IMG/VR virus record: IMGVR_UViG_3300042988_001309
Coordinates: 1-64,000 of that record
Reading direction: 5' to 3' (one strand)
DNA: 64,000 nucleotides
Source: a virus
The translations under genes and the position numbers were made by a program. Each line of letters opens with the position of its first letter. Within the stretch, counting starts at the first letter, position 1. This document shows positions 39,062 to 63,800 of the stretch, piece after piece. Under the pieces are notes generated by a model. That model searched no databases and was not told where the DNA came from. It worked only from the letters and a program-made list of their open reading frames with translations.

Positions 39062-42000
39062 AGGACTGGGAACGGCGAGCCCAGCTCTATGAGGCGTCGC
39101 TCGCCAAGATCATCCGGGCCCATCTGACCCGCCAAGAGCGCGTCGTCATCGAGAAGCTCGGTGGCGCCAAGACCCGCCAGCGCTACGACCGTCACCTGGA
39201 GGCCAAGGCCCGGTTCGGCAACTCCGGCACGGCTCAGCTCACCCCGGCCCGCCTGGCCAGCTTGATGGCCTCTGCCGCTGTGCCCGGCCGCCCCGGCGCC
39301 GCGGCGCGAGCCACCCTCACCCGGTTTGGCGTGAACTGGCAGACCGGCAAGCCCCTCGCCGGTGGCGCCCCCTCGACGCCCGCCCCGAGCGCCCCGAGCG
39401 CACCGAACACCCCGAGCGTGCCCTCGGCACCGAGCGGCCCGCCGCCATCGCCGCTCAAGATGGTCACCACGCTGATGGGCAACTTCGCGCCCGGCACGCC
39501 GCCCTCCCCGTTGGGGAATGGCGTGATCCCGAACGCCCCCCAGTCGGTCCACAACAACGCCGACATCGCTGCCAAGGCCACCGGCTACGCGCCCGGCACC
39601 AACGGCTACGACCTCGCCTACTACGCCTACCTCGACGCGGCCATGGACCATGCCCGAGGCCTGTTCAAGGTCGACCCCACCACCCATGACTTCACCGCCT
39701 CCGAACTGGCCGTCCTCGACGCGGTCGCCACCCACGCCGTCCAGAACCGCATCGCCGCCGGTGCACCATCGCTGGCGATGATCTCCCGCAACCACTTCCC
39801 CCATGCGTTCCCGTTGGCGCCGACGAGCGCCAACCCCAACCCGCCGCTCAATGCCCCCAACACCCCGAGTGCTCCCGCCGCGCCGACGCCGCCCCCAGTG
39901 CCGTCATCGCCCACGCCGCTGGCCAACCCCGGCACGCCGACCATCGTGTTCCAGAACCCGCTGCCCATCGAGCTGCCCGGCGCGATCTATGCCAACGCCA
40001 CCAACTACTTCGGGGCCAACCTCATCAACGCCTCGCCGCCCGTGGGTGCCGCGAACCCCTATCGGGCCTTCCCGAGCCAGATGGCCTATGCCACCTACGT
40101 GGTCGGCGCCATCGAGTCGATCCAGCGCAACGGCTTCCAGGTCGATCCGGCCACCGGCGACTACGACCCGGCCGACTTCGCCAAGTTCGACGCCGACGGG
40201 GCTCACGCCACGTTCACCTACTACAAGTTCGGCACCCCGCCGCCGCTCATGGTGTCGGCCTCGCTGTGGCCGACCGGCGCCCACAGCCCCGGCGTCTCGA
40301 TCACCACCACCGGCGTTGCGGTGGGTGCCCCGTCATCGCCCCCGCCACCCCCGCCGGTACTCATGGTCCCCTCGCCGATCGGCATGGTCGCCGCGGGCTC
40401 CCCGGTCTCCCCGCTGCTCGGTGGTGGCCAGCTCCCGGCGATGCCCCAGTCCATCCATGACGCCGCCAACCGTCGAGCGTTGAGCGTCGGTCTCTCTCCT
40501 GGCTTCCAGCCCGGCACCAACGGCTACGACCTCGCCTACTACGCCTACATCGACGCCGTGTACGTCCAGGCGTCCCCGATCATGGGCCAGTCCCAGGTCC
40601 ACCTCGACCCCAACACCGGGGACTTCACCCCCGCCGACCTGGTGCTGCTCGACAACGTCGCCTCCAGCGTGGTGGCCAGCACCATGATTGCCGGAGTCCC
40701 CAGCTCCACCATGGTCCAGCGGGGCAACATCCCCGCCAACTTCGCCAACGGTGCCACCCCCTCGCTCAACGCCCCCAACACCCCGAGCCCGTCATCGGGC
40801 GCCGGTGTACCCCAGGGCCCCTCGATCTCCGCCACGGTCGGCACCCCGACCCCCGCCTTCGGTGGTCCTCCGACCCCTCCGGCCGGGCCGATGCCGTACC
40901 CCGACATCCACGATGTCCCCGACCTCCCCGACCCGCCGGACACCACCCCGGTCCCCGACGACCAGATCGTGCCCACCGTGTCCGGGCTCGACGAGCTGGT
41001 GGCCATGGGCCCGATCCCGCGGGCCAAGTCGCTGGCTGCCACCGTGCAGGCCCACCGGATGCGGATGCGGGCCTGGATCGGTGGCGACCCGATGCGCCAG
41101 GACCTGGCCGACGCCGCCGCCATGTGGATCGGCGACTACCAGCTCCCCATGCGCGAGTACCAGGAGATCCGCTCGTCGGCCGACTACCTGGCCAAGAAAC
41201 CCCGGGGCATGAAGGGCGGCCGCCTGGCCATGCGCCACGCCGCCACGTTGATGGCCGCCGCGGCCACCGGGCCCGTCATCCCCCGCATGTACCGGGGGAT
41301 CACCGTGACCTCCAGCGACCTGACCAACATGACCAAGCCGGGCTACCGCTTCACCGGCTCCCTCGACGCCTACTCGCTCAACCGGGACCGGGCGCTGGCG
41401 TTCGGGAACCTGCGCTCCACCAGCGGCTACGGCGGTGGCAACAACCTGGTGATCATCGAGATCGACGGCGGCCACGGCGTGCCGGTCAGCCCCTTGTCGC
41501 ACGCCACCGGCGCGGTGAGCTACCTCGACGCCGAGGAGATCCTGTCGTCGGGTGTGTGGGAGACCGTGTCGTCCTCGACCGCGTCCGAGACCCCGATGAC
41601 CATGGTGCGCGACGGCATGACCCCCGGATCGAGCCCTCGGACGGTCACCACCATCCGGGTCCGCCAGATCGTGCGCGGCTACGACCCGGTCACCGGCGAC
41701 GAGATCCCCGTCATTGCCCCCGCTGCCGCCACCAAGGCCGCCCGGCGCGACTACCCCGAGATCATTCCGCACGAACCGATGTACCCGAAACCCAGCGACT
41801 TCACCCCCGACCAGGAGGCGATGAACCTGCTGGTGTGGGTGGACGACGGCATCGAGCTGCCCGAGGTCAAGGGCATCCACCTGCCCGGCATCTTCGACGT
41901 GGCTGCGTTCGCCAAGCGACTCATCGACGACGCCCTCGACTGGCTCAAGCTCATGTACGGCGACTGGGGGAGCGCCACGGCCCGTCATCTCGGCGCCGCC

Positions 42001-44598
42001 GACTGGAACCCCCGCGACCCCGCCGTGGTGCAGGCCATCGAGAACCAGGCCGAGCGGATGCGCGGCGTGGCCGAGACCACCTACAAGCTCATCGAACAGC
42101 GCATCGCCGAGGCCGAGGCCGAGGACCTCCCGATGCCCGACATCGTCGACCGGGTCGCCGCCGACTTCGCCCGCCAGCGCGAGACCCGTGCCGAGACGAT
42201 CGCGGTGACCGAGGTCTCCGCGGCGGCCAACACCGCCAGCTTCCTGGCCGCCAACCAGATCCCTGGCGCCACGCTCACCAAGACGTGGTGGACGATGCAG
42301 GACGAGCGGGTCCGCCCCGCCCACCGCCACGCCCATGGCCAGGTGGCCGACGTGATGGAGCCCTTCGTCGTCGGTGGCGTGCCGATGATGTTCCCCCACG
42401 ACCCGTCCGCCCCGCTGCACCTGATCATCAACTGCCGGTGCCGGATCATCTGGAAGCCGGTGTACGTGATGACCGGAGCGACCGCTCCCAACCCGGCGCT
42501 GGCCAAGGCGTGGTCCAGCCGTCATGGCCAGTCCAAGGCCCGCTTCGGCAACCGGGGCGGGGCTCAGCTCACCCCGGTGGCCCTTGCCCGGCTCCTGGCC
42601 TCGGCGGCCACCCCCGGCAAGCCCGGCGCCGCCGCCCGCGCCACCCTCACCCGGTTCGGGGCCCGTGTCCCCGCCCCGGCGCCGGTGCCGACCCCGGGAG
42701 GCTCGCTCGACGCCGTCAAGGCCCGCATCGCCGCTCTCCACGCCTCCGGGCCCCAGGCTTCGTGGTTCGGGGCGCAACGGCTGCGCAACCAGATCGACCC
42801 CAACGACCCGGCCAGCCGGGAACGAGCCGTGCAGGCCACCATCGACGTGATGCTGGGCCGAGGCCAACTCGACTACGACCGGATCATGACCGACGACGGC
42901 CTCAACGCCATCCGGGACCTCATCGACAAGCGCCTGGCCGGACAACCGCCCAAGGGCCGCATCGGCGCGATCGTCGAGGAGACCTTGAACCGGCGCATGG
43001 GCGCCGCGCTGCGCGACGTGGACCCCGACGAGGTCGCCTCGATGATGGCCAGCCGCTACCTGCCCACCCAGGGCGACTGGGACGACAAGGCCATCCGCCA
43101 GCGCGACCGTGACTACGCCGCCGCGGCTGCCCGTCATGTCCTGGCCGACTACCTGACCCGCACCACGTCGAACTGGCCGCCCGCTCCGGCCGGGATGGAC
43201 GACACCCGCCGGGACCTGATCCGCGACTCGATGACCGCAGGCCTGCGCGGCACCAACGAGCCCGGCATCGCCGCCGTGCTCGCCCAGGCCCCCAGCCCCC
43301 GGGCCATGGCCAACGAGGCCGAGATCAACGCCATCGGCTCCGCCATCATCGACGCCGCCCTGTCCGACAAGGTCACCGACCAGGCCGCCCTCGACGCCGC
43401 CTACGACGCCGCCTCGACGGCCCACCACGCCTCGATGCGAGCCCTGGCCGTCCACGACGACGCCTACGCCACCTCGGCCGCCGCTGCCGTCATCGCCTCG
43501 TCCAACTCGATGGGGCTCCCCGACCCGCCGGTGACCGGCTGGGTGGCCATCGACACCAAGGTGGACAAGCGCCGAGGGGCGATCACCCTCATCTGGGGCA
43601 ACGGTGGGGACACCTTGTCGATGCGGATCACCGCCCACGGCAACATCCACGCCCGCTACACCTCCGCCGGTGGGGTCGAGCGTGACGCCAGCCCGGCCAT
43701 CTCCGACCAGGCCGCCTACGACGCCCTCGCCCAGGCCTCGGCCGACCTCCAGACCATGCGGGCCGCCTACGACGCCAGGGGCATGTACGGCATCCGCCGG
43801 GTCGAGCGCGACGCCATCTTCGACGCCCTCGGCCAGATCCGCCCGTTCGCCAAGGGCCGCACCCCCCTCGTCGCCACCGACAACACGCCCATCGCCCACA
43901 ACTTCGGCAGGGGCCACGGCGCCCCGCCGCCGGACCAGACGGTGATCGACGCCCTCACCTGGGCCACCGACTACTACCCGAGCGACTGGGTCGACGCCGG
44001 TGACGCCAACGGCCCGGTGTACGGGATGGGCTTCGACCGGCGCGGGTTCTTCACCCAGGTCCCCGACCCGAGCGGCAAGATGGTGCCCGTCATCATCGCC
44101 AGTCGGTCGGACCCGAGCCCGCTGGTGGAAGGTGGCGGCACCCCCGAGTTCAACGAGACCATGGCCCATGAGTACGGGCACTACATGGAGATGGTGATCC
44201 CCGGCCTGACCGACGCCGAATACGCCCTGTGGTATCGCCGCACCAACGGCGGCGAGGGGGCCATCTCGATGAACGAGGCCGAGGGGGTCCCCGCTCAACT
44301 CCAGGCCATGGGCATGGGCTATGGGCCCGAGGAGATCACCGCCCCCGACGAGTTCCTCTACGCCTACATGGGCAAGATTTACCCTGGCGGCACCCAGACG
44401 AACCGGGAGATGTTCACCATGGCGATCGAGTCGCTCGTCGGTGGCCGCGGCGGCAAGCTCCCCGACGGCTCCCGGCCCAAGAGCTTCGTCCAGGGCGACC
44501 GGGACATGGCCAACTGGCTCGTCGGCCTGCTGGCCACGCTCAACCTCGGACCGGGCAACACCGCCACCACCTCGACCACTGCCGGAGCGCCGTCATGA
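39040..44598 (+). CDS. MuF-type head protein fused to ADP-ribosyltransferase and zinc metalloprotease domains
   Basis: 1,852 residues from GTG 39040. In order: a short helical head (~1-50); tag copy 1 (56-100, RFGN...ATLTRFG); a Pro/Ala-rich linker; three ~110-residue repeats (two with GTNGYDLAYYAY, all with a VDP-T or LDP-T strand); an ADP-ribosyltransferase-like domain (~655-875) with R752 (MYRGI), a SLDAYSLNRDRALAF segment and E832/E833 (LDAEEIL); a MuF domain (~983-1146) with RAETIAVTEVS, DERVRPAHRHAHG and NCRCRI; tag copy 2 (from 1166); and a C-terminal zinc metalloprotease with H1710-E-x2-H1714 (AHEYGHYM). MuF proteins enter the host with DNA in several phages. Fusions of MuF with toxin-type enzymes are known; this one carries two. 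It overlaps the portal gene by 22 nt. Confidence 0.75.
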   Translation: MDDAAWVEDWERRAQLYEASLAKIIRAHLTRQERVVIEKLGGAKTRQRYDRHLEAKARFGNSGTAQLTPARLASLMASAAVPGRPGAAARATLTRFGVNWQTGKPLAGGAPSTPAPSAPSAPNTPSVPSAPSGPPPSPLKMVTTLMGNFAPGTPPSPLGNGVIPNAPQSVHNNADIAAKATGYAPGTNGYDLAYYAYLDAAMDHARGLFKVDPTTHDFTASELAVLDAVATHAVQNRIAAGAPSLAMISRNHFPHAFPLAPTSANPNPPLNAPNTPSAPAAPTPPPVPSSPTPLANPGTPTIVFQNPLPIELPGAIYANATNYFGANLINASPPVGAANPYRAFPSQMAYATYVVGAIESIQRNGFQVDPATGDYDPADFAKFDADGAHATFTYYKFGTPPPLMVSASLWPTGAHSPGVSITTTGVAVGAPSSPPPPPPVLMVPSPIGMVAAGSPVSPLLGGGQLPAMPQSIHDAANRRALSVGLSPGFQPGTNGYDLAYYAYIDAVYVQASPIMGQSQVHLDPNTGDFTPADLVLLDNVASSVVASTMIAGVPSSTMVQRGNIPANFANGATPSLNAPNTPSPSSGAGVPQGPSISATVGTPTPAFGGPPTPPAGPMPYPDIHDVPDLPDPPDTTPVPDDQIVPTVSGLDELVAMGPIPRAKSLAATVQAHRMRMRAWIGGDPMRQDLADAAAMWIGDYQLPMREYQEIRSSADYLAKKPRGMKGGRLAMRHAATLMAAAATGPVIPRMYRGITVTSSDLTNMTKPGYRFTGSLDAYSLNRDRALAFGNLRSTSGYGGGNNLVIIEIDGGHGVPVSPLSHATGAVSYLDAEEILSSGVWETVSSSTASETPMTMVRDGMTPGSSPRTVTTIRVRQIVRGYDPVTGDEIPVIAPAAATKAARRDYPEIIPHEPMYPKPSDFTPDQEAMNLLVWVDDGIELPEVKGIHLPGIFDVAAFAKRLIDDALDWLKLMYGDWGSATARHLGAADWNPRDPAVVQAIENQAERMRGVAETTYKLIEQRIAEAEAEDLPMPDIVDRVAADFARQRETRAETIAVTEVSAAANTASFLAANQIPGATLTKTWWTMQDERVRPAHRHAHGQVADVMEPFVVGGVPMMFPHDPSAPLHLIINCRCRIIWKPVYVMTGATAPNPALAKAWSSRHGQSKARFGNRGGAQLTPVALARLLASAATPGKPGAAARATLTRFGARVPAPAPVPTPGGSLDAVKARIAALHASGPQASWFGAQRLRNQIDPNDPASRERAVQATIDVMLGRGQLDYDRIMTDDGLNAIRDLIDKRLAGQPPKGRIGAIVEETLNRRMGAALRDVDPDEVASMMASRYLPTQGDWDDKAIRQRDRDYAAAAARHVLADYLTRTTSNWPPAPAGMDDTRRDLIRDSMTAGLRGTNEPGIAAVLAQAPSPRAMANEAEINAIGSAIIDAALSDKVTDQAALDAAYDAASTAHHASMRALAVHDDAYATSAAAAVIASSNSMGLPDPPVTGWVAIDTKVDKRRGAITLIWGNGGDTLSMRITAHGNIHARYTSAGGVERDASPAISDQAAYDALAQASADLQTMRAAYDARGMYGIRRVERDAIFDALGQIRPFAKGRTPLVATDNTPIAHNFGRGHGAPPPDQTVIDALTWATDYYPSDWVDAGDANGPVYGMGFDRRGFFTQVPDPSGKMVPVIIASRSDPSPLVEGGGTPEFNETMAHEYGHYMEMVIPGLTDAEYALWYRRTNGGEGAISMNEAEGVPAQLQAMGMGYGPEEITAPDEFLYAYMGKIYPGGTQTNREMFTMAIESLVGGRGGKLPDGSRPKSFVQGDRDMANWLVGLLATLNLGPGNTATTSTTAGAPS
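39205..39339 (+). repeat. Tag element copy 1 (in MuF polyprotein)
   Basis: Encodes residues 56-100 (KARFGNSGTAQLTPARLASL..., ending ATLTRFGVNW). A 53-bp stretch (39274-39326) is the same as in copy 3 (45069-45121). Confidence 0.8.
42535..42666 (+). repeat. Tag element copy 2 (in MuF polyprotein)
   Basis: Encodes residues 1166-1209 (KARFGNRGGAQLTPVALARL..., ending ATLTRFGARV), directly between the MuF domain and the metalloprotease region. Confidence 0.8.
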
Positions 44599-44942: not shown

Positions 44943-47900
44943 ATGGCGTTCGTGTGGAGATGGGCCCCCGGTGAAGTGAAGGCCACGGTGGCAGGGACGG
45001 CCAACCGTTTCGGCAACCTCGGTGGCTCCCAGATCAACGCCGCCAAACTCGTCTCGCTGGTGACCCGAGCCGCTGTGCCCGGCCGCCCCGGCGCCGCGGC
45101 GCGAGCCACCCTCACCCGGTTCGGCTACGACGCCGCTGGCAACCCACTGTCGGGGCAAGGGCCCACGGTCGCCCAGATGGCCGCGGCGGCCAACGTCCCC
45201 GGCCCCAACGTCCCCAACGCCCCGAGCCCGTCATCGCCCAACGCCCCTGGTGCGCCCTCGACCCCGAACGCACCCAGCGCCCCCTCTGCGCCGTTGCCGC
45301 CCCCCCAGCCGACGGCGCCGAACGCCCCCGGCCCGGTGTCGTCCTCCACGCCTGGGCCGGGGGCACCTTCCGCCGCTGCGCTGCCAGCGATGCCCTCGGT
45401 GCCCGGCTCGGTGGCCGGTGCGAACACGGTGCCCGTGCTCGACGCCAACGGCTCACCCCGCCCCGTCATGACGGTCGACAAGGTCGACGACTTCCCGACC
45501 TCCAACGCCATCGTCGACTCCTCGATCATCCTGTCCGACGCCCTCACCGAGGTGGTGACCACCATGGGTGGCACCTACGGCGACGACACCCCCGAGAACT
45601 ACACGGCGGTCAACGCCTTCGTGACCGAGGCCGCCCAGACCCTGGTGGACCTCGACCTGGCCGCCAACTTCGACGCCGGGCTCGGCGCCAACCACCGCCC
45701 CTGGCCCACGGCCGACCAGCTCTACACCGCCGTCACCCGTGGCTACCAGGCGGCCTGGCAGTCGGTGGCCAAGCTCCACGGCGACACCCCGAGCGACCAG
45801 AGCACGACCGACGAGGTGCTCACCCCCGGGCCGGGATGGCACTCGCCGATGACCGGCCGGGACTACCCCGGGATGCCCGCCGACGTGCCCCTGCCCGACT
45901 ACTTCGACAACGTCACCATGGGGCCCGAGCCCACCTTGCCGAGCGGCTCCCCGCGGCCCCCGCTGCGCCTCCCCGATCCCAATCTGCCCCAACGGCCGAC
46001 CGTCATCGTCAACCAGGACGGCCGCCTGTTCAGCCTCATGGCCTCGATCTCCTCGGCGTTCCGCACCACCTACGGCAAGGACTCCCCGGAGCGCCGCATC
46101 GCCATCGGCGCGTTCCTGGCCGAGACCTCCCAGAGCGCCACCGACTTCGGCTTCAAGCCCACGGGCTGGGGCTCGTTCGCCAACGGCAAGAGCCCGACCG
46201 ACGAACAGCTCATGGTCATCGCCGACCGGGGCCGCCGCTCGGCGTTCCAGTCGGTCGCCGACTTCCACGACGCCCAGCTCGCCCCCGCGGCCGTCACCGA
46301 GCGCGACGACATCTATCTGCCCGACCGGGGCGAGCAGACGATCAAGGTCAACTCGCTCACCGACGTGGTCGACGACGCCACGCTGCCCTACGTTGAGATC
46401 CCGCCGAGCTGGGGCAACGGCGGCCCGGGAGCCGCCAAGAGGCCCTCCGACGCCGAGCTGGCGTGGAAGTTCTCCCTCGACTACGGCGCCCCCGGAACGG
46501 TCGCTCAGCGCCTCGCCTACAACACCTGGGCCGTGTGGGCCTCCAAGTGGCGACGCAACGACCCCGCCAAGTACCGGGTCCTGGCGATGTCGACGGCCGA
46601 GGCCCAAGGCATCGAGGAGAACGCCCGGTTCGACATGGTGACCAGGGTCCTGGCCCACCCCTCGACCGAGGCCATCGCCGTGCCCGGCTCGCGTTCGGTG
46701 CAAGACACCGAGCACCGCGAGTGGGTCGAGCTGCCCGCTGGCGCCGGAGCCCCCGACCCCAGGGCCAACCCGGGCAAGACCTACACCGCCGCCGGACTGC
46801 GCGATGGGTCGGACCCCTACGTCCCCCGCCCGGTCGGGCTGGCCCGCTCGGGGAGCGCGTTCGACAAGCTCATCGACAACCCCATCGACGCCGAGTGGAT
46901 GACCAGCCACGGCTATCCACCCGACCCGGTGCTCCTCGCCGTGGCCCAGTCGGCGTGGGCCGATGCGGTGAACGAGCGGACCTTCTACGCCGAGCGCAGG
47001 GGCTACTCCGTCATCCCCTCGATCAACACCATCGTCCTCGACGCCGAGACCGACATCGCTCGACGCCTGGCCGACGCCCAGTGGTCGCGCACCCAGGACC
47101 CGCCGGTGCCGATCAACCTCGGCTGGGGAGACGGTGTCAAGGACGACGACTACTCGGTGCTCACCGACCCGTACCTGTTCGGGCCCAACGGCCGCACCGG
47201 CGCCAAGAACCTGTGGGACCTCAACTTCGACGCCTGGGAGAAGATGGGCGGGGACCGTAGCTCCGTCATCGCCCGGAGCACCCAGCTCATCGCCGACCAC
47301 AAGTACGCGCCCGACGACGTGACCCCGCTGCTGCGCACCGACTTCCGGCGCGGCTCACCGGCGATCGACATCCCCCACGACTACCTCGACGCCTACCTCA
47401 AGACCGGCGGCATGGACGTGGCCCGCCGGGACCGCTCGGTGCTCGCCCAGAACGACCAGTTCGCCATGCTCTCGTTCACCCCCGACTCGGCCTATGCCCA
47501 GTGGATTGCCGTGGACATCGCCAAGCGCCGCGTCGACGGCGAGGCGACCCGTCATGACGACATGATCCAGGCCCGCATCGACGACGCCACGGCCCAGGAC
47601 CTGATCGCCTTCGCCCAGGGGCTCGCCGGTGTCGATGTCAGCGACCCGACCGCCCCCCAGTACCCGGCCGGGCGCGACACCTACATCGTGGCCCTGGCCG
47701 CCATGGGCAACCAGTTCGACCAGCTCCCCAAGATCATCTCCGGCAACGACATCGACGCCGCCAAGGCCGCCGCCGTGACCGCCGTCAAGGCCGCCTCGAT
47801 GGCGCAGTTGCCTGGCCTGGAAGCCGCCCTCGCCTTCGCCAAGTCCGGCGACCCCAACGACGACTACGGCTGGGCCGACCTCGACGCCGAGTACCAGGCG

Positions 47901-51936: not shown

Positions 51937-51970
51937 ACTGGGCGGCCCCGGGGGGACGGGACACTGCCAG

Positions 51971-52046
51971 TGGCACCGACCGGATTTGAACCGGCGACCT
52001 CCTGGTTATGAGCCAGGCGAGCACATCCGAACTGCTCCACGGTGCG
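51971..52046 (-). tRNA. Initiator-like tRNA-Met (CAU)
   Basis: On the minus strand, 76 nt without an encoded CCA. The anticodon loop is CTCATAA on a CCTGG/CCAGG stem, and the T loop is TTCAAAT. The acceptor pairs GCACCG with CGGTGC at positions 2-7, while position 1 (C) faces C at 72, so the first pair is missing. The D arm has GGAGCAG with A11:U24. The unpaired 1:72 and A11:U24 are initiator identity features, and TGGAGCAGTTCGG matches the actinobacterial initiator as I remember it. The three G:C anticodon-stem pairs are only partly kept (UGG/CCA). An Ile-CAU tRNA is less likely. Confidence 0.8.
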
Positions 52047-55666: not shown

Positions 55667-58600
55667 ATGACCGCCGACCAGGGCCGCATCTTGGCCATGG
55701 CGATCCTGCTGGAGGGCGCGATCCGAGACGCTCCTGCCCTCCCCGGCAAGGGTCCGCTCGCCTCGATCGCCGAGGTCTACAACCGCCTGCTCGCCGACCC
55801 CTCCGATCGCTACGGCGGCCCGGCGTTGATCGAGTTCGTGCTCGACGCCGCCCGCCGTCATGGCGCTGCGGTGCCCGGCGGTGAGGGCAAGTCGATCGAG
55901 CAGAGGTTCGGCAACCGGGGCGGCAAGCTCACCCCCGACGGCCTGCTGCGCCTCACCTCCACCGCCCTGCTCCCCAACGACCGAGGCCGAGCGGCACGGG
56001 CCACCCTCACCCGCTTCACCGGCCGGGGCAAGCTCGACCTCCCCGACGGTGATCGCCGCCAGGTCGACCACGCCCAAGCCTCGACGCTGTTCAACCGTGA
56101 GCGCCAGCGCAACCTGTTCGGCGCCCAGGCGGGCCATCTGTCGGCCGTGGAGATCGGCAAGCGGTTCACCCTGCCCGAGTCGTTCAAGGCCCGCGCCATC
56201 GGGGACCTGATCGCCCAGGACCCCTCCCGCGGCACCGAGTACGGCGGGACCGGCCGGTATCAAGACGGCTTCTACAGCGGCAACTGGAGCGTCGTGCTCG
56301 CCAACGCCCAGCGGCTCGACCCGAGCCTGGACGAGCGCTCCCCGGTCGGTGACGTGCTCGCCGCCTCCCAGCCGCCCGCCATCGGCTTCAACAACCCCGA
56401 ACAGGACCCCGCCTCGATCGCGCTGGCCGCCCGCCTCGCTGCCTCCGCCGACCCCGACGCCGAGCGCCGGGCATGGGCCACCGAGCAGGGCTGGACCGCC
56501 GAGGCCGGATACGTCGCCGCCCTCCAGGGCTGGTGGATCAACGACAGTTCCTCCCCGTGGGCCCAAGCGATGACGCTGGCCGCCGCTCAACGTCTCGGCG
56601 ACCCGAGCGACATGGCCCGCTCGCTCAGTCACCTCCAGGCCAAGGCCGCCGAGTGGGAGCCCGGCACGCTGGTCGGCCAGGACATCCTCGACTCCGCCGA
56701 GGGCCCGGCGCTGCGCCAGGCCGTCATGGCCATCTATGACCACACCCAGGCCCGCCTCGCCGACTACGGGCTCCGGCCCGACGACCTGATCGAGCTGTAC
56801 CGAGGGATCGGCCCCGACAACGAGATCCGCACCGGCGACACCGCCATCGCCGACCCGCTCACGTCGTGGTCGTCGAACCCCGCCGTGGCGTTGTCGTTCA
56901 CCAAGGTCCGCCGCGGCGGATCGGTGCTCAGCGGCTCGGTGCCCGCCCGCTCGATCCTCATGCTCATCACCGACGCCACCGGCTACGGCGGGCTCCACTA
57001 CGCGAAGTGGGAATGGCACCTCGACTCCCAAGAGGAGTTCGTGACCCTCGGTGGCCCGGTGAACGTGACGGTGACCAGGACCCAGGACCCGGTCGGGCTC
57101 CTGCACGGGTCGACCCCGGTCGAGTCGGTGATCGCCCGAGGTCCCGGCTTCAAGTCGGCCCGGCGCGAGGTGTACGTGGACGGCGACAACTGGATGCACG
57201 TCGTGCGCTCCGCCATGCCGTCATCGGGCATGAAGGCCCGGTTCGGCAACGCCGGGACGGCCAAGCTGTCCGCCGCTCGCCTCGCCAGCTTGATGGAGCG
57301 AGCCCCGACGAGCCCCCAGGCGCGAGCCACGCTCACCCGGTTCGGGATCGACTGGCATCGCCCGGCCGCTCCGGCCGCTCCGGCCAAGAACCCCGCCGTG
57401 CCGGAGCGCCTTGTCCTCGGCGTGCCCGGCTGGGACCAACAGTTCACCGCCCACCCCGAGGCGATCGAGCCGGTAATGCTGGCGCTGGAGGCCGAGGACC
57501 GCCTGCGCGCCTACGCCGCCAACGTCGGCACGGTCACCGACCGCTGGTCGGGCCGCTCCGAGGACTATCGGACCACCATCTTCAACAACGCCCAGTCGTT
57601 GCAGGCCGTCATGAAAGCGACGGTCAACGACCCGGACAACATGCCGGTCGATGTGGATTGGACCTCCGAGACCGTCGACATCGCCCACCAGACATGGGTC
57701 GACGCTCGCCCGTTCACCGACTGGTCCGTTCATGGCCCCGAGGACCGTTCGGCGTGGCTGCTCGCCGCGGCCAAGCGCCGGGTCTCGGGCGAGGACTGGG
57801 GCGTGGCGGTGACCAACGTGGCCCGCCGCCTGGCCGACGGCACGGCCCCCGAGGACACCTACGACCCCAACGACCAAGACGCCAACCAGCGGGCCGGGGT
57901 GACGAGGTACGACCCGTTCCTCGATCTCCAGCACGGCTGGGCGCTCTACAACGGTCTGCGCGACCCGGCGGTGACGACCCCCTCGCCCACCCCGCTGTAT
58001 CGGGGCATGTCGTTCACCCCTGACGGCAAGGCCATCGCCGTCGGGGACCGGATCGACATCGCCGCCGCCTCGTTCTCCCTGTCGAGCGACGTGGCCGACT
58101 CGTTCGCCCTCGACCGCAACTTCGACGAGGAATCTCAGGTCGCCACCGATGACGAATCCCTCGCCGCCACCGATCGGATGCGAGCCGAGCACTACCCCAA
58201 CGCGTCGCGCGTCGTGTACGTCGCCGCCCCCGGCACCCCGGGCTTCGATGCCACCAGCTTCTCGGTGCGCGGCGAGCAGGAGTGGCTCGTTGGCGGCACG
58301 TTCACCGTGACCGCCATCGACGAGGGCGACCGCGTCCGCTACATCCACATCGCCCCCGCTGCCACCAAGGCCGCACGCCGGTGGCGGATGGACCCCACCG
58401 ACTTGCCCGCCGATCTGGACTGGCCGGTGCGGCCGTCATCGGGGATGAAGGCCCGTTTCGGCAACGCCCACTCCGCCAAGCTCACCCCGGCCCGCCTGGC
58501 CAGCCTGCTGTCGCGTGCGGCCACCAGCCCCCAGGCGCGAGCCACGCTCACCCGGTTCGGCGTGGATTGGCGCACCGGCGCCATCGCCAACCCACCGGCC

Positions 58601-60544
58601 CCCCGGGTGCCTCGCCGCACGCTTCCCCGTCCGGCCCGTGACGGCAAGTGGCACCTCGTCGGCAACGTCGATGTCCGGGCCCTGCCCACCGACCCGGCCG
58701 ACACCTGGCGGGTGTCGTGTGAGCGTTGTGGCGGCACCGGCTACGTCACCAGCGGCAACGCCGCCCACGGCACGATCTGCTACCGCTGTGGCAGTGGGGG
58801 GGACGAGCCCGCCGTGCCCGTCAACACCGCCACCTCGCCGCTGCCCCCCAAGCTGCTCACCTGGGACGGGGTCGAGCTGCTCGACCAGCACCGCGCCCAA
58901 GTCGCCGCCGACGAGCAGGCCCGCAACGAGGCCCGCAAGGCCGAGTTCGTCCGCAAGCTCACCGTGTTCGACAACGCCGTCATGGCCGACCCCGAGTTCG
59001 GGTCTCGCATGGCCCGCCTGCGCTACCTCGACGACATGGCCCAAGGGGCAACGACCGAGCCCCCATCGGCATCACTGGCCATCGTGCGCCACGACGCCGT
59101 GGCCGACGCCGACGTGGGCAACACGTTCGACCTGACCCCGCACCGCGCCGAGCTGGCCCGAGCGTTCGACGCCGCCGAGGCCTACACCGCCCGGGTCTAC
59201 CCCGAGCTGGCCGCCGAGGTCGGCATCGGGCCGGAACGCTCCGGCCGAGCCCCGAGCCCCAAACAGGTGTCGTACCTGCGCAACCTGCTGCGCCGCTCGG
59301 GCATCAACCCCGCCGAGGCCGACACGGTCGACGACTCGACCATCGCATCGGCGCTCATCGACGCGCTCAACGAGGGCGACACCCGCCGGGCCCGCTACCT
59401 CCTCGACGCCTCAGCCCCGCCGTCATCGGAGCTGGGTCCAGTGCTCGACGCCCTGCTCGCCCGCCACCAGTTCGACCCCGACGCCGAGGAGGCTCCGCTC
59501 CCGGGGCTCAACCCTGACCGCGTGGTCGGCGACATCGGCCGCTCGCTTCTCGACCAGGGCTTCGCGCTACCCGACCAGCTCGCCGCCCGGCCAGCGAACG
59601 ATCCGGTGACCTCGATCGGGCTCGACGGCGCACTGTTCTCCGGCATCCGCGACGAGGGCGAGGCGTCCACGTTCGGGGAACTGCTCACCGCCTGGGCGCG
59701 CTTGCGCGAGCAACGAGCCGCCGACGAGGTCTGGCAGGGCACGCGGGACATCCTCGACGAGCAGGACGCCCTGGCCGACGCGGCCCGGCGCACCGGGGCG
59801 CCTTACCCCGAGGCCGAGATCGCCCGCCTCGGGGATCGACTGCGCGCTCGGGAGGCCGAGCTGACTGCCCAGGCCGAGGCCAAGTACCGCATCGGGCCCA
59901 GCCTGGGTTACGCCGTCATGATGCAAGACGCCTGGAGCGAGACCACCGCCGGTGACCGTTCGGCGGCCATGATCACCGCCGCCGCCAACCAGTTCCCGAA
60001 CCCGACGATGACCGAGGGGCTTCAAGCGTTCCGGCAGTTCCAACCCGGCTTGGCCGCATCTGCCGAGACGATCGTCAACGGCCCAGAGGCCCCGGCGATC
60101 GGCGCGTTCATGGCGACCACCTACGCCGCCACCCAACGGTTCCTCGCCGACAACGGCTTCCCCCCGGGCTCGACGGTGACGCTGTATCGAGGGGTCTCGA
60201 CCGGCGCCGACCAGGTGGGTGGGGAGGTGTTGGTCAACCCGCTCTCATCGTTCACCACCGACCGCTCCATCGCCGAACGGTTCTCGCGTGTCGACTGGGG
60301 CCTGGAGGGCCAAGGCGGGGTGATCACCGCCCAGGTGCCGGTCGAGCGGATCTTCTCGATCGCCGGGATCGGCCCCGGCCACCTCGCCAGCCGGGAAGTG
60401 GTGGTGCTCGGGGGACGGCTCCCGGCATCGGCCGATCTGACCTTCCGGCCGACCTACAAGGGCCTGGGCGGGCCGTCATACATCGACGCCGACAGCGACT
60501 GGCTGCGCGTGGCGGCCCGGTTGATCGCCTCCGCCAGCGCCTGA
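55667..60544 (+). CDS. Polyprotein with three ADP-ribosyltransferase-like domains, a zinc finger and three tag elements
   Basis: 1,625 residues. In order: a helical head (~1-75); tag copy 4 (79-117); ART-like domain 1 (~120-500) with R379 (ELYRGIG), S400/S402 (TSWSSNP) and Q455-x-E457 (SQEEFV); tag copy 5 (523-563); ART-like domain 2 (~570-895) with R779 (LYRGMS), S802/S804 (AASFSLSS) and E870-Q-E872 (GEQEWL); tag copy 6 (928-968); a four-Cys zinc site C1018-x2-C1021...C1038-x2-C1041 like one unit of the DnaJ finger; a helical region; and ART-like domain 3 (~1390-1620) with R1508 (LYRGVS), SSFTTDRS and E1577 (SREVVV). Domain 3 has Ser in place of the first E/Q. The R-S-ExE layout is that of mono-ADP-ribosyltransferases, which modify host proteins. 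It lies upstream of the prohead protease. Confidence 0.7.
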   Translation: MTADQGRILAMAILLEGAIRDAPALPGKGPLASIAEVYNRLLADPSDRYGGPALIEFVLDAARRHGAAVPGGEGKSIEQRFGNRGGKLTPDGLLRLTSTALLPNDRGRAARATLTRFTGRGKLDLPDGDRRQVDHAQASTLFNRERQRNLFGAQAGHLSAVEIGKRFTLPESFKARAIGDLIAQDPSRGTEYGGTGRYQDGFYSGNWSVVLANAQRLDPSLDERSPVGDVLAASQPPAIGFNNPEQDPASIALAARLAASADPDAERRAWATEQGWTAEAGYVAALQGWWINDSSSPWAQAMTLAAAQRLGDPSDMARSLSHLQAKAAEWEPGTLVGQDILDSAEGPALRQAVMAIYDHTQARLADYGLRPDDLIELYRGIGPDNEIRTGDTAIADPLTSWSSNPAVALSFTKVRRGGSVLSGSVPARSILMLITDATGYGGLHYAKWEWHLDSQEEFVTLGGPVNVTVTRTQDPVGLLHGSTPVESVIARGPGFKSARREVYVDGDNWMHVVRSAMPSSGMKARFGNAGTAKLSAARLASLMERAPTSPQARATLTRFGIDWHRPAAPAAPAKNPAVPERLVLGVPGWDQQFTAHPEAIEPVMLALEAEDRLRAYAANVGTVTDRWSGRSEDYRTTIFNNAQSLQAVMKATVNDPDNMPVDVDWTSETVDIAHQTWVDARPFTDWSVHGPEDRSAWLLAAAKRRVSGEDWGVAVTNVARRLADGTAPEDTYDPNDQDANQRAGVTRYDPFLDLQHGWALYNGLRDPAVTTPSPTPLYRGMSFTPDGKAIAVGDRIDIAAASFSLSSDVADSFALDRNFDEESQVATDDESLAATDRMRAEHYPNASRVVYVAAPGTPGFDATSFSVRGEQEWLVGGTFTVTAIDEGDRVRYIHIAPAATKAARRWRMDPTDLPADLDWPVRPSSGMKARFGNAHSAKLTPARLASLLSRAATSPQARATLTRFGVDWRTGAIANPPAPRVPRRTLPRPARDGKWHLVGNVDVRALPTDPADTWRVSCERCGGTGYVTSGNAAHGTICYRCGSGGDEPAVPVNTATSPLPPKLLTWDGVELLDQHRAQVAADEQARNEARKAEFVRKLTVFDNAVMADPEFGSRMARLRYLDDMAQGATTEPPSASLAIVRHDAVADADVGNTFDLTPHRAELARAFDAAEAYTARVYPELAAEVGIGPERSGRAPSPKQVSYLRNLLRRSGINPAEADTVDDSTIASALIDALNEGDTRRARYLLDASAPPSSELGPVLDALLARHQFDPDAEEAPLPGLNPDRVVGDIGRSLLDQGFALPDQLAARPANDPVTSIGLDGALFSGIRDEGEASTFGELLTAWARLREQRAADEVWQGTRDILDEQDALADAARRTGAPYPEAEIARLGDRLRAREAELTAQAEAKYRIGPSLGYAVMMQDAWSETTAGDRSAAMITAAANQFPNPTMTEGLQAFRQFQPGLAASAETIVNGPEAPAIGAFMATTYAATQRFLADNGFPPGSTVTLYRGVSTGADQVGGEVLVNPLSSFTTDRSIAERFSRVDWGLEGQGGVITAQVPVERIFSIAGIGPGHLASREVVVLGGRLPASADLTFRPTYKGLGGPSYIDADSDWLRVAARLIASASA
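55901..56017 (+). repeat. Tag element copy 4 (in ART polyprotein)
   Basis: Encodes residues 79-117 (QRFGNRGGKLTPDGLLRLTS..., ending RAARATLTRF), the N-terminal copy of three in this protein and the most diverged one. Confidence 0.75.
57233..57355 (+). repeat. Tag element copy 5 (in ART polyprotein)
   Basis: Encodes residues 523-563 (KARFGNAGTAKLSAARLASL..., ending ARATLTRFGIDW), between ART domains 1 and 2. Confidence 0.8.
58448..58570 (+). repeat. Tag element copy 6 (in ART polyprotein)
   Basis: Encodes residues 928-968 (KARFGNAHSAKLTPARLASL..., ending ARATLTRFGVDW), between ART domain 2 and the zinc-finger/ART 3 part. The DNA just upstream is again CCGTCATCGGG(C/G)ATGAAG, as before copy 5. 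Confidence 0.8.
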
Positions 60545-60837: not shown

Positions 60838-63800
60838 GGCGATCGTCTCGGTCACCAACATCGTCGACCACGTCGGCGACAAGATCATCCCCGGCGCCTA
60901 CGCCGAGACCCTCAAGACCCGTCGCCCCAAGGTCTGCTGGAACCACAAGTGGGACAACACCGTGGGCAAGGTGCTGGAGATCGTCGAGTTGATGCCCGGC
61001 GATCCACGCCTGCCCGACAAGCTCAAGACGATCGGGGCCGGGGCGCTCAAGGTCAAGGTGCAGTTCAACCTCAACTCCACCCGAGGCCGCGATGCCTGGG
61101 AGGACGTGAAGTTCTACGGCGAGGAGGGCGAGTGGTCGATCGGCTACGACGTGAACGGCCCGACGGGCAAGAGCCGCAACGTCGGGGGAGTGCGGGAACT
61201 GCACCAGATCAACCTGTTCGAAGTCAGCCCCGTACCGTTCGGCGCCGCCCCGCTCACCGGAACCCTCGCCCTCAAGAGCCTCGGCGCACCGAGCGCACCT
61301 GAGGCCGTCATGGGCCGGGTCCCGTTCGACAACGCCGTGAAGGCCTACGGCGCCGGTGCCCAGCTCTCCGCCGGTGGACGAGCCCGCCTCACCGCACGGG
61401 CCGCCCTGCCCGGTCGCGAGGGGGCCGCGGCGCGAGCGACGCTCACCCGGTTCCTCGGCGGCGGCAAGCCCGAGGCGCCACGCCCGGCGGCTCAGCCGAC
61501 CCATTTCATGCCCCCGGACGCCCCGACGTTTCGCTTCCCCGAGAGCATCGACAACCTGCTCGCCGCCGGACCAGACGCCCTGTCGAGGGCCGCGTGGGCG
61601 CCCGTGGAATGGGACGAGACCGAGGACCCCTACTCCTACGAGAGCCGGTACATCATCGGCGGGCCCGACTCCGTCGTGACGCTCACCCCGGACCCCGGTC
61701 AGGGGCGGGCCTTCCTGTCAATCCCCGGCAACGACAGCCTGGAGATCAGGACCGTCGGCGATTTCGAGAAGGCCTACACGGCCATCGACCGCGGCTTCGT
61801 CGGCAAGCTGGAACTGCGGGATCTCTCGGCTCGCAACATCGCCGTCCTCATCGAGGACAACATCCGCGAGTCCGTCAATGCCGATGGGCGCCGGTCCGCC
61901 ACGGTCGACGGCGCCCCGGGGTTCGGCCTGGTGTTCACCCCCGACGGCCTGAACGTGGTCACTCCTGACGGGGCCGTGAAGCGGGTCAATGAGGTCGACG
62001 ACCTGCGCTTCGTCCTCGGCAAGCCCCCCTATCCGCACACCAGCCTCACCGGCTCCACCCCCAAGCCGAGGGGGACGACCTACGTGGTCCCGGCGGGGCG
62101 CATCCCCCGGAACCTGGGGGCGATGACGACCTCCGAACAGTACGAGGACATGGATCGCTACAACGCCTTCGTGGCGGCCGGTGGCGAGGGGCGCACCTGG
62201 ATTCCCACCGTCCGCGACTACCCCGACCCTGGAGGTCACGTCATGAACTGGCCGAAATCCGCCGAGCCCGTCATGGACCCGCTCGTCGCCGACTACCTCG
62301 ATCTGACCGGCAAGGCGTGGACCCGGGGCGGGAAGCTGTCCGACGCGGGTCGAGCCAAGCTGGTGGCACGCGCCGCTGTCCCCGGCAAGGAAGGCGCCGC
62401 CGCCCGCGCGACGTTGACCCGCTACCTCGGCGGCGACAAAGAGGCGGCCGGACGGATGATCCAAGCGCACCGTTCCGGCGACAAGCTGCCCGACGCCGCG
62501 GCGACGGCCAAGATGCCGTCGCGTCGCGAACGGCGCCTCATCGAGGCCGCCACCAACGGTGACAAGGAAGCGGTAGCCGCGTTGCGCGACATGGGTCTCG
62601 AAACCGACGGCCTGCCCGGCTACGGCTTCCAGCGCCCCGAGATCGCCGAAGGACTCGCCAGCGTGGAGCGCGCCGGGTTCGCCCCGTTCGTCCGTCAATG
62701 GAGTCGGGCGACCGGCAAACCGCAAACGGCCAGCGAGATTTACGGCATCCCCCGAGAGTTTCGCGACCCGCCCCCTGGCTATTCGACGAGGCAGGAATGG
62801 ACCGATGCTGTCGGCAGGGGTGTCCGCGGCGGCGACGGCACGGCGGCCAAGCCGTTCCTGGTGAGCGGTGATCTCCCCCCGGAAGAACGGCAACGACTGT
62901 TCAACGCCCTCGCCGACTCGTCCGCGGACGGGGTGCGTGGCGTCGCGATCGGGGACCCCGAACTTGGTGTCTCCGACCCGAAACTCACCGAACGTGCCCG
63001 CGCTCGGGCGGGGAATGACCTGCTGTCGTCGGCGTTCACCACCGCGAAACTCGACGAGTTCCACGCCGACTTCGACGGACGCAAAGACCTGTCCGACGCG
63101 ATTCAATCCGGCACCGGCAGTCAACGCGACCCGTACATCACCGACAACCCCGAAGCGGCCGCCATGGCGATCGGCAAAGGCAGGTTCGTCGAGCTGCAAC
63201 AGCCCGACGAACTGGCGACCATGATCGACGTGATCGCCGACTGGGTGAACGAGGCCAAGGCCAAGGGTGAGAAGGCCCCGACCTACGACCTGTGCCGGGC
63301 CATGGTCAAGGGCACCAACCTGTTCTGCATCGAGTCCAAGGGCATCCCCCGCATCAAGATGCCCCAGCTCTCTGGCATCCCGACGCCGGGCTCTCCGGCC
63401 GACTCGTTGCCCAAGCGGCCCAACGGCGAGGTCGACCTCGTCCCGTTGTTCCTCCAGCACCTGGCGTCCAAGGGCATCCGCTCCCAGCGCACCTCGGTGA
63501 AGGCCAGCCACCTGCGCGCCAGCCAGAACGAGCTGAACGGCGGCAAGGTGTCCGGCATGGTCCAGTCCATGGCCGCGGGCAAGCTCCCGCCGGGCTCGAT
63601 CATCTCGACGACCGACAACTACGTGGTCGACGGGCATCACCGCTGGGCGGCCACCATCGGCACCTCGATCAAACAGGGCGACGATCTCATGGTCGACACC
63701 GACCAGATCGACGCCCCGATCCTCCAGGTGCTCGCCCTGGCCAACCTCTACGCCGTGGAGATGGGCATCCCGCCCGCCGGGGCCGATGCCCCCGTGCCCC

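Follow-up and report, generated by a model that had tools for sequence, protein, structure and literature searches.

A phage head-locus protein with three ADP-ribosyltransferase-like domains and a repeated tag as a candidate address label for head loading

The window analyzed here is the first 64 kb of the 94,093-base IMG/VR virus record IMGVR_UViG_3300042988_001309 (G+C, 69%). It contains an open reading frame (ORF), P0001, that lies in a phage head locus and encodes three ADP-ribosyltransferase (ART)-like domains, here called ART1, ART2, and ART3, divided by copies of a tag of about 45 residues that ends in ARATLTR. The original prediction for this locus mentioned the tag only as a divider; it is the more interesting part of the finding.

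Head locus and distribution of the tag

The genes of the locus are arranged in the order portal (P0005), MuF fusion (P0004), 2180-aa protein (P0003), triple-ART protein (P0001), S78 prohead protease fusion (P0002), and major capsid gene. P0001 is thus flanked by portal, MuF, protease, and capsid genes, which bears out the head-locus setting that had been proposed for it (Table 1). The tag was counted over the 94-kb record, one part of the stretch beyond the window being covered by profile search only, and eight copies were found, with two in P0004, one in P0003, three in P0001 (ending at residues 116, 558, and 963), and two in P0002. No copy was found elsewhere in the 94 kb. Eight copies of a short sequence on four cargo-bearing head-locus proteins are what a capsid-targeting-type signal presents, and loading is the role that we infer for the tag. 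Across the eight copies, the codons of the ARATLTR core show 81 synonymous and 0 non-synonymous differences (196 codon pairs), indicating that selection acts on the peptide and not on the DNA. The stretch upstream of ARATLTR is far more variable in a crude gap-free comparison, and the copies are 50 to 72% identical to the first copy at the protein level. The tag is modeled as a helical hairpin, with a predicted local distance difference test (pLDDT) score better than that of the remaining chain.

ART-like domains, candidate processing motifs, and neighboring genes

Three LYRG...S...E sets had been predicted in P0001, and they are present at R379/E457 (ART1), R779/E872 (ART2), and R1508/E1577 (ART3), with tags dividing them. 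The R, S, and E active-site residues that define the R-S-E class stand in order in all three domains. Q455 and E870 precede the catalytic E of ART1 and ART2, and the serine noted in the third domain, at the place where the first catalytic E/Q would be expected, is Ser1575, two positions ahead of E1577. A regular expression for the R-S-E set, which is descriptive in that it was composed after the motifs were seen, has three matches in P0001 and one in P0004, none in the ORFs of related loci (676,281 residues), and at most one match in each of 3,000 shuffles of P0001 (mean, 0.001). Assignment to the Tox-ART-HYD2 class was rejected, as R-S-E residues stand where its H-Y-D active site would be.

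The predicted ART identity found good support for two of the three domains. ART3 matches Pfam dinitrogenase reductase ADP-ribosyltransferase (DRAT; PF07357) at 25.4 to 25.8 bits (E = 7e-6 at 25.8 bits), barely over the cut-off of 25, and the match covers profile positions 153 to 251 of 256, which is the C-terminal part only and not the full length; unlike DRAT, ART3 lies in a phage head context. ART1 and ART3 share 29% identity (BLAST, 50.8 bits; pairwise E = 4e-13), and their similarity continues into the C-terminal tail in the alignments. In ART2, the motif is accompanied by a weak hhalign match to the profile of ART1 and ART3 (P = 0.001 over the catalytic stretch). ART3 and ART1 are likely ADP-ribosyltransferases by these comparisons, and ART2 is a probable one. 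A fourth ART-like motif (ART4), MYRG...AYSLNRDRALAFG...AEE, is present in the MuF fusion P0004 (motif at residues 750 to 835, region at residues 680 to 905); it received no profile support and is possibly an ADP-ribosyltransferase.

The structural check proposed for the ART fold was run with AlphaFold2 on a two-row alignment of paralogues, the sole alignment obtainable, and gave poor models (mean pLDDT, 38.2 and 44.8). A Foldseek search with the second of these poor models gave no match at an E value of ≤0.001. An ART profile found nothing real in 247 genomes of one class (centered on an Acidimicrobiia metagenome-assembled genome), plasmids, and the PDB, and the DARPin matches were rejected since they arise from a short ankyrin-like stretch (GLHYAKWEWHL). 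A DRAT search in 198 genomes gave no match, with the controls equally silent, and carries no information. The end of P0003 has a vaguely ART-like WRGG...GAGVYMA, and this candidate fifth ART was not supported on follow-up comparison.

Short motifs adjoin the domains and tags. K-[A/S] stands immediately before all eight tags, and K-[A/S]-A-R-R has three occurrences across the four tagged proteins, every one directly after an ART-like domain (ART1, ART2, and ART4). K-S-L-G (K followed by SLG), which we take to be the HK97 cleavage sequence, is found in the major capsid protein and in the stretch after the S78 domain. The three patterns suggest processing. The copy after ART4 lies at 41734 in P0004, and ART2 and ART4 both precede a near-identical IAPAA(A)TKAARR.

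P0001 had also been credited with a DnaJ-like zinc finger, and this label is not supported. Instead of four motifs, P0001 has a single perfect CXXCXGXG, at 1018, and an imperfect second one, CYRCGSGG, at 1038, and it gave no Pfam DnaJ match even at an E value of ≤10. The ATG of P0001 stands immediately 3' of the stop codon with which a small upstream gene ends, and a search with the whole protein in IMG/VR and cultured phages found no relatives. The portal protein is 41 to 45% identical to Gordonia phage portals, P0002 is homologous to Gordonia phage capsid maturation proteases (E value of about 1e-43), and the major capsid protein is 40 to 47% identical to its counterparts in Gordonia phages and Brevibacterium phage Cantare; by sequence, the source phage is related to phages of actinobacteria. 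P0004 has an HExxH motif, HEYGH, at residue 1710, in a metallopeptidase-like stretch at its C-terminal end (residues 1700 to 1800). A family search with P0003 gave zero matches. A lone tRNA-Met gene (cat) is encoded at 51970-52046 on the minus strand, with the surrounding late genes on the opposite strand.

Table 1. Positions of head-locus genes, tag copies, and other features in the window
Feature	Position	Strand	Remarks
Portal protein P0005	37406..39061	+	PF04860, E = 3.6e-41
P0004	39040..44598	+	Tag, ART4-like motif, MuF domain (PF04233, E = 6.7e-12), tag, HEYGH metallopeptidase-like region
P0004 tag, first copy (residues 56-95)	39205..39324	+	Tag profile
P0004 tag, second copy (residues 1166-1205)	42535..42654	+	Directly C-terminal of MuF domain
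P0003	44943..51485	+	2180 aa; N-terminal tag, then cargo without family match
P0003 tag, N-terminal (residue 13 onward)	44979-45119	+	Tag profile
P0001, triple-ART head-locus protein	55667..60544	+	1625-aa ORF between portal and major capsid genes
P0001 tag, copy 1 (residues 75-116)	55889..56014	+	Starts K-S; A1 profile match; ends ARATLTR
ART1 (R379, S400 region, Q455-E457)	56663..57076	+	Paralogue of ART3; motif
K-S-A-R-R after ART1 (residues 496-500)	57152..57166	+	Candidate processing motif; putative function
P0001 tag, copy 2 (residues 523-558)	57233..57340	+	Local model helical hairpin, block pLDDT 64-79
ART2 (R779, S802 region, E870-E872)	57887..58336	+	Motif; hhalign to ART1 and ART3, P = 0.001; no Pfam match
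K-A-A-R-R after ART2 (residues 901-905)	58367..58381	+	IAPAATKAARR near-identical to stretch after ART4
P0001 tag, copy 3 (residues 928-963)	58448..58555	+	Modeled helical hairpin, block pLDDT 60-87
Two-motif CxxC zinc-binding-like element (C1018, C1021, C1038, C1041)	58706..58816	+	Sequence
ART3 (R1508, S-F-T-T, S1575-R-E1577)	60044..60526	+	Pfam PF07357 DRAT match
P0002	60773..63931	+	Prohead protease (S78; PF04586, E = 1.8e-12), tag, unassigned stretch, tag, ParB-like C terminus
P0002 tag, first copy (residues 190-226)	61340..61450	+	Tag profile
P0002 tag, second copy (residues 514-550)	62312..62422	+	Tag profile

Tag-plus-cargo proteins in cultured phages and IMG/VR relatives

Cultured Gordonia and Brevibacterium phages have a tag of their own, E-x-K...VRxxxxx[Y/W]GxPxG[T/S]xI, which occurs in 13 copies in five genomes (GMA6, Chidiebere, FlyingTortilla, DalanDe, and Cantare), all 13 between the portal and capsid genes. 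VIP2-like ARTs carry it at the N terminus in Chidiebere (gp26), GMA6 (orf13), and FlyingTortilla (gp25), and in these three phages the next head protein starts with the same tag and repeats it internally, as in Chidiebere gp27 and GMA6 orf14. In DalanDe, the tag is on three proteins, including the protease fusion gp27, and in Cantare it is on one; further copies are found in a Forza ART protein, Magritte gp17, and GMA2 orf10 (weakly Acb1/2H-like). The cargo of these proteins comprises ART, HNH, GNAT-like, 2H/Acb1-like, and S78 protease domains, some of them below curated cut-offs. The window ARTs resemble those of Chidiebere gp26, FlyingTortilla gp25, and GMA6 orf13 in lying in the same portal-to-protease/capsid interval, in phages whose capsid proteins are 40 to 47% identical, whereas each of the latter proteins has a single ART (checked with PF03496 in Chidiebere and GMA6) and a different N-terminal tag. 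DalanDe gp27 (L092:14425-19326) is a capsid maturation protease with >1,100 residues of N-terminal cargo and the tag near its start. Streptomyces phage Gilgamesh gp48 (L089:3979-17853), a protein of 4624 aa without a Pfam match, is encoded between the portal/MuF and capsid genes.

In a dereplicated set of 38 IMG/VR relatives, large ORFs have a tag in common in 8 of 27 loci on the upstream side of the capsid gene, compared with 1 of 28 loci on the downstream side (Fisher test on ORF pairs, P = 0.036). These shared tags are other, unrelated sequences, namely, FDPxAWDGDxDGIVQEGTxFERP, WRCPxGTxxGGxITDRFGRxCGW, and NRFPxxGLPxxAYWR. In the relatives, whose capsid proteins are mostly 46 to 51% identical, giant ORFs precede the capsid gene and encode quite dissimilar cargo, including DnaJ, Zeta toxin, NUDIX, ArdC-N, MPTase-PolyVal, sigma region 4, and pentapeptide repeats. 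The first of the three tags (in L039, L048, L051, L053, L066, and L069) resembles a calcium-binding loop (DxDxDG). In addition, the gene directly upstream of the capsid gene often opens with DUF3721 (GCxGAHxxxDGxWMPC), sometimes doubled and followed by Zeta toxin, DUF5824, or helix-turn-helix cargo (L017, L018, L019, L025, L026, L038, L050, L051, L058, and L066); from its sequence, DUF3721 may be another head tag.

The tag as a candidate address label

Polyvalent proteins are large multidomain proteins of phages and conjugative elements whose injection together with DNA is predicted (Iyer et al. 2017, PMC5512222). They may hold a single ART or several, with as many as 12 in a Pseudomonas prophage-derived protein. 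P0001 is likewise a multidomain protein with ARTs, encoded among portal-terminase head genes, with metallopeptidase-like and ParB-like regions nearby. Domains of disparate predicted activity are combined in one chain in P0001 (ARTs, zinc-binding-like element, and unassigned regions), in P0004 (ART-like motif, MuF, and HExxH region), and in P0002 (S78 protease and ParB-like region). Unlike polyvalent proteins as described in the passages of PMC5512222 considered here, which report no such element, the window has a tag common to several proteins. P0001 is also like T4 Alt and the head-packaged Alt/VIP2 ARTs fused to MuF (PMC9503650) in having R-S-E ARTs in a head locus, where the MuF fusion P0004 adjoins; unlike those, it has three in one chain, and PF03496 (Alt/VIP2) matches no window ART and nothing else in the window's record, whereas Chidiebere and GMA6 match. 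In this comparison, the term host-takeover protein, used in the original prediction, agrees with the concept of polyvalent proteins as published (PMC5512222, PMC9503650). Polyvalent head-packaged phage proteins, multi-ART members included, are an already known class; what is new here is chiefly the tag, together with the presence of three R-S-E ARTs in a single chain.

We favor, at a little better than even confidence, the explanation that P0001 is an effector precursor of the polyvalent kind that is loaded into the head, and in which the tags direct the loading, and possibly the cleavage, of each block. P0001 would be synthesized along with the late head proteins and would travel in the capsid beside the MuF fusion, the 2180-aa protein, and the protease fusion, with the tag as a common address label and every cargo block coming after a copy. 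The predicted helical hairpin, with K-[A/S] before it and the invariant ARATLTR at its end, would dock a block in the assembling prohead, by analogy with the T4 capsid targeting sequence, a short sequence on internal head proteins that the prohead protease cuts off (PMC7411985), and with the N-terminal 30 residues of P1 DarB, which are a packaging signal (PMC9024508). The window tag is similarly a short sequence on head-locus proteins, for which loading is here a proposed role; it differs in that the T4 and P1 signals are of about 10 to 30 residues and N-terminal, while the window tag has about 45 residues, is repeated within chains, and is found on the protease and the MuF protein as well. 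The S78 protease, itself with two tags, may cut between K and [A/S] or after ATLTR, yielding separate effectors, and the R-S-E ART modules would then enter the host with the DNA, to ADP-ribosylate host or defense molecules after ejection as T4 Alt does. The analysis itself establishes the architecture, the location, the relationship of ART1 to ART3, the selection on the tag peptide, and the parallel tagged cargo proteins of cultured phages; the ART activity, packaging, injection, docking, and cleavage in this scheme are what we infer.

Several results weigh against this explanation. ART2 and ART4 have no Pfam family match, and BLAST gave no alignment between them; the split beta-sandwich ART fold was not confirmed by the low-pLDDT models. 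Since K-[A/S] belongs to homologous repeats, its conservation is not independent evidence, and as HK97-type sites lie between K and S, not between R and F, the case for cleavage after ATLTR is weak. Searches with the window tag in IMG/VR, cultured phages, 33 related records, and the 247 genomes of one class gave nothing above chance. The window tag and the cultured-phage tag proved not to be homologous on comparison, so that the analogy between them rests on position.

Other explanations were weighed against the same evidence. In a virion-loaded multi-ART polyvalent protein, the tags could be purely structural, as helical hairpins that space or oligomerize domains with no part in loading or cleavage. 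Their modeled hairpin form and the location of the majority of them between domains agree with this, but they recur in four otherwise unrelated proteins, the protease included, the tag of P0003 is N-terminal (residue 13), a position that calls for no spacer, the strictness of the invariant heptapeptide ARATLTR goes beyond what a spacer would demand, and cultured phages show the same geometry with an unrelated tag; we consider this explanation unlikely. It is still less probable, and already disfavored, that the tags are frequent recombination sites for swapping effector modules and owe their conservation to exchange at the DNA level; cargo is wholly different among relatives with capsid proteins about 49% identical, which speaks for such swapping, but the core peptide is kept while its codons vary, and the protein-level identity of the copies to the first is limited to the range given above.

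The two remaining explanations concern the ARTs. They may be toxins of a temperate phage against competitors, of the MuF polymorphic-toxin type, and not takeover factors injected with the DNA. MuF-toxin fusions are widespread among temperate phages (PMC5576092), and P0004 is a MuF fusion, but no immunity gene was recognized beside the locus in a search that was not exhaustive, and the tagged cargo of relatives has anti-defense-like domains (2H/Acb1-like, HNH, and GNAT, some matches being weak), which leaves this explanation quite improbable. Degenerate ART-like domains with a structural role and no NAD-dependent activity would be compatible with the Ser ahead of the catalytic Glu in ART3 and with the poor AlphaFold2 models, which lend no structural support; we judge this very unlikely, as R, S, and E are kept in all three domains though the remainder has diverged to about 30% identity or less.

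If the explanation of P0001 as a head-loaded effector precursor is extended to its relatives, several actinobacterial phage lineages may have independently evolved short tags specific to each lineage, single or repeated, on unrelated head cargo (ARTs, nucleases, 2H enzymes, and the maturation protease), with a polyprotein being loaded and then cut into injected effectors. This extension is tentative, and we rate it somewhat short of an even chance.

Head-packaged effectors are widely predicted, and the choice of cargo is understood in few model phages (T4 and P1). A tag on the cargo-bearing head proteins of a genome offers a way to find, from sequence, injected effectors whose function is unassigned, and with the parallel tag of cultured Gordonia and Brevibacterium phages, the address-label idea can be tested without delay. 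Provided that they suffice for loading, tags of this kind would be a general means of placing proteins in phage heads. The window tag is, by this analysis, a testable candidate address label that may load host-takeover proteins into phage heads.
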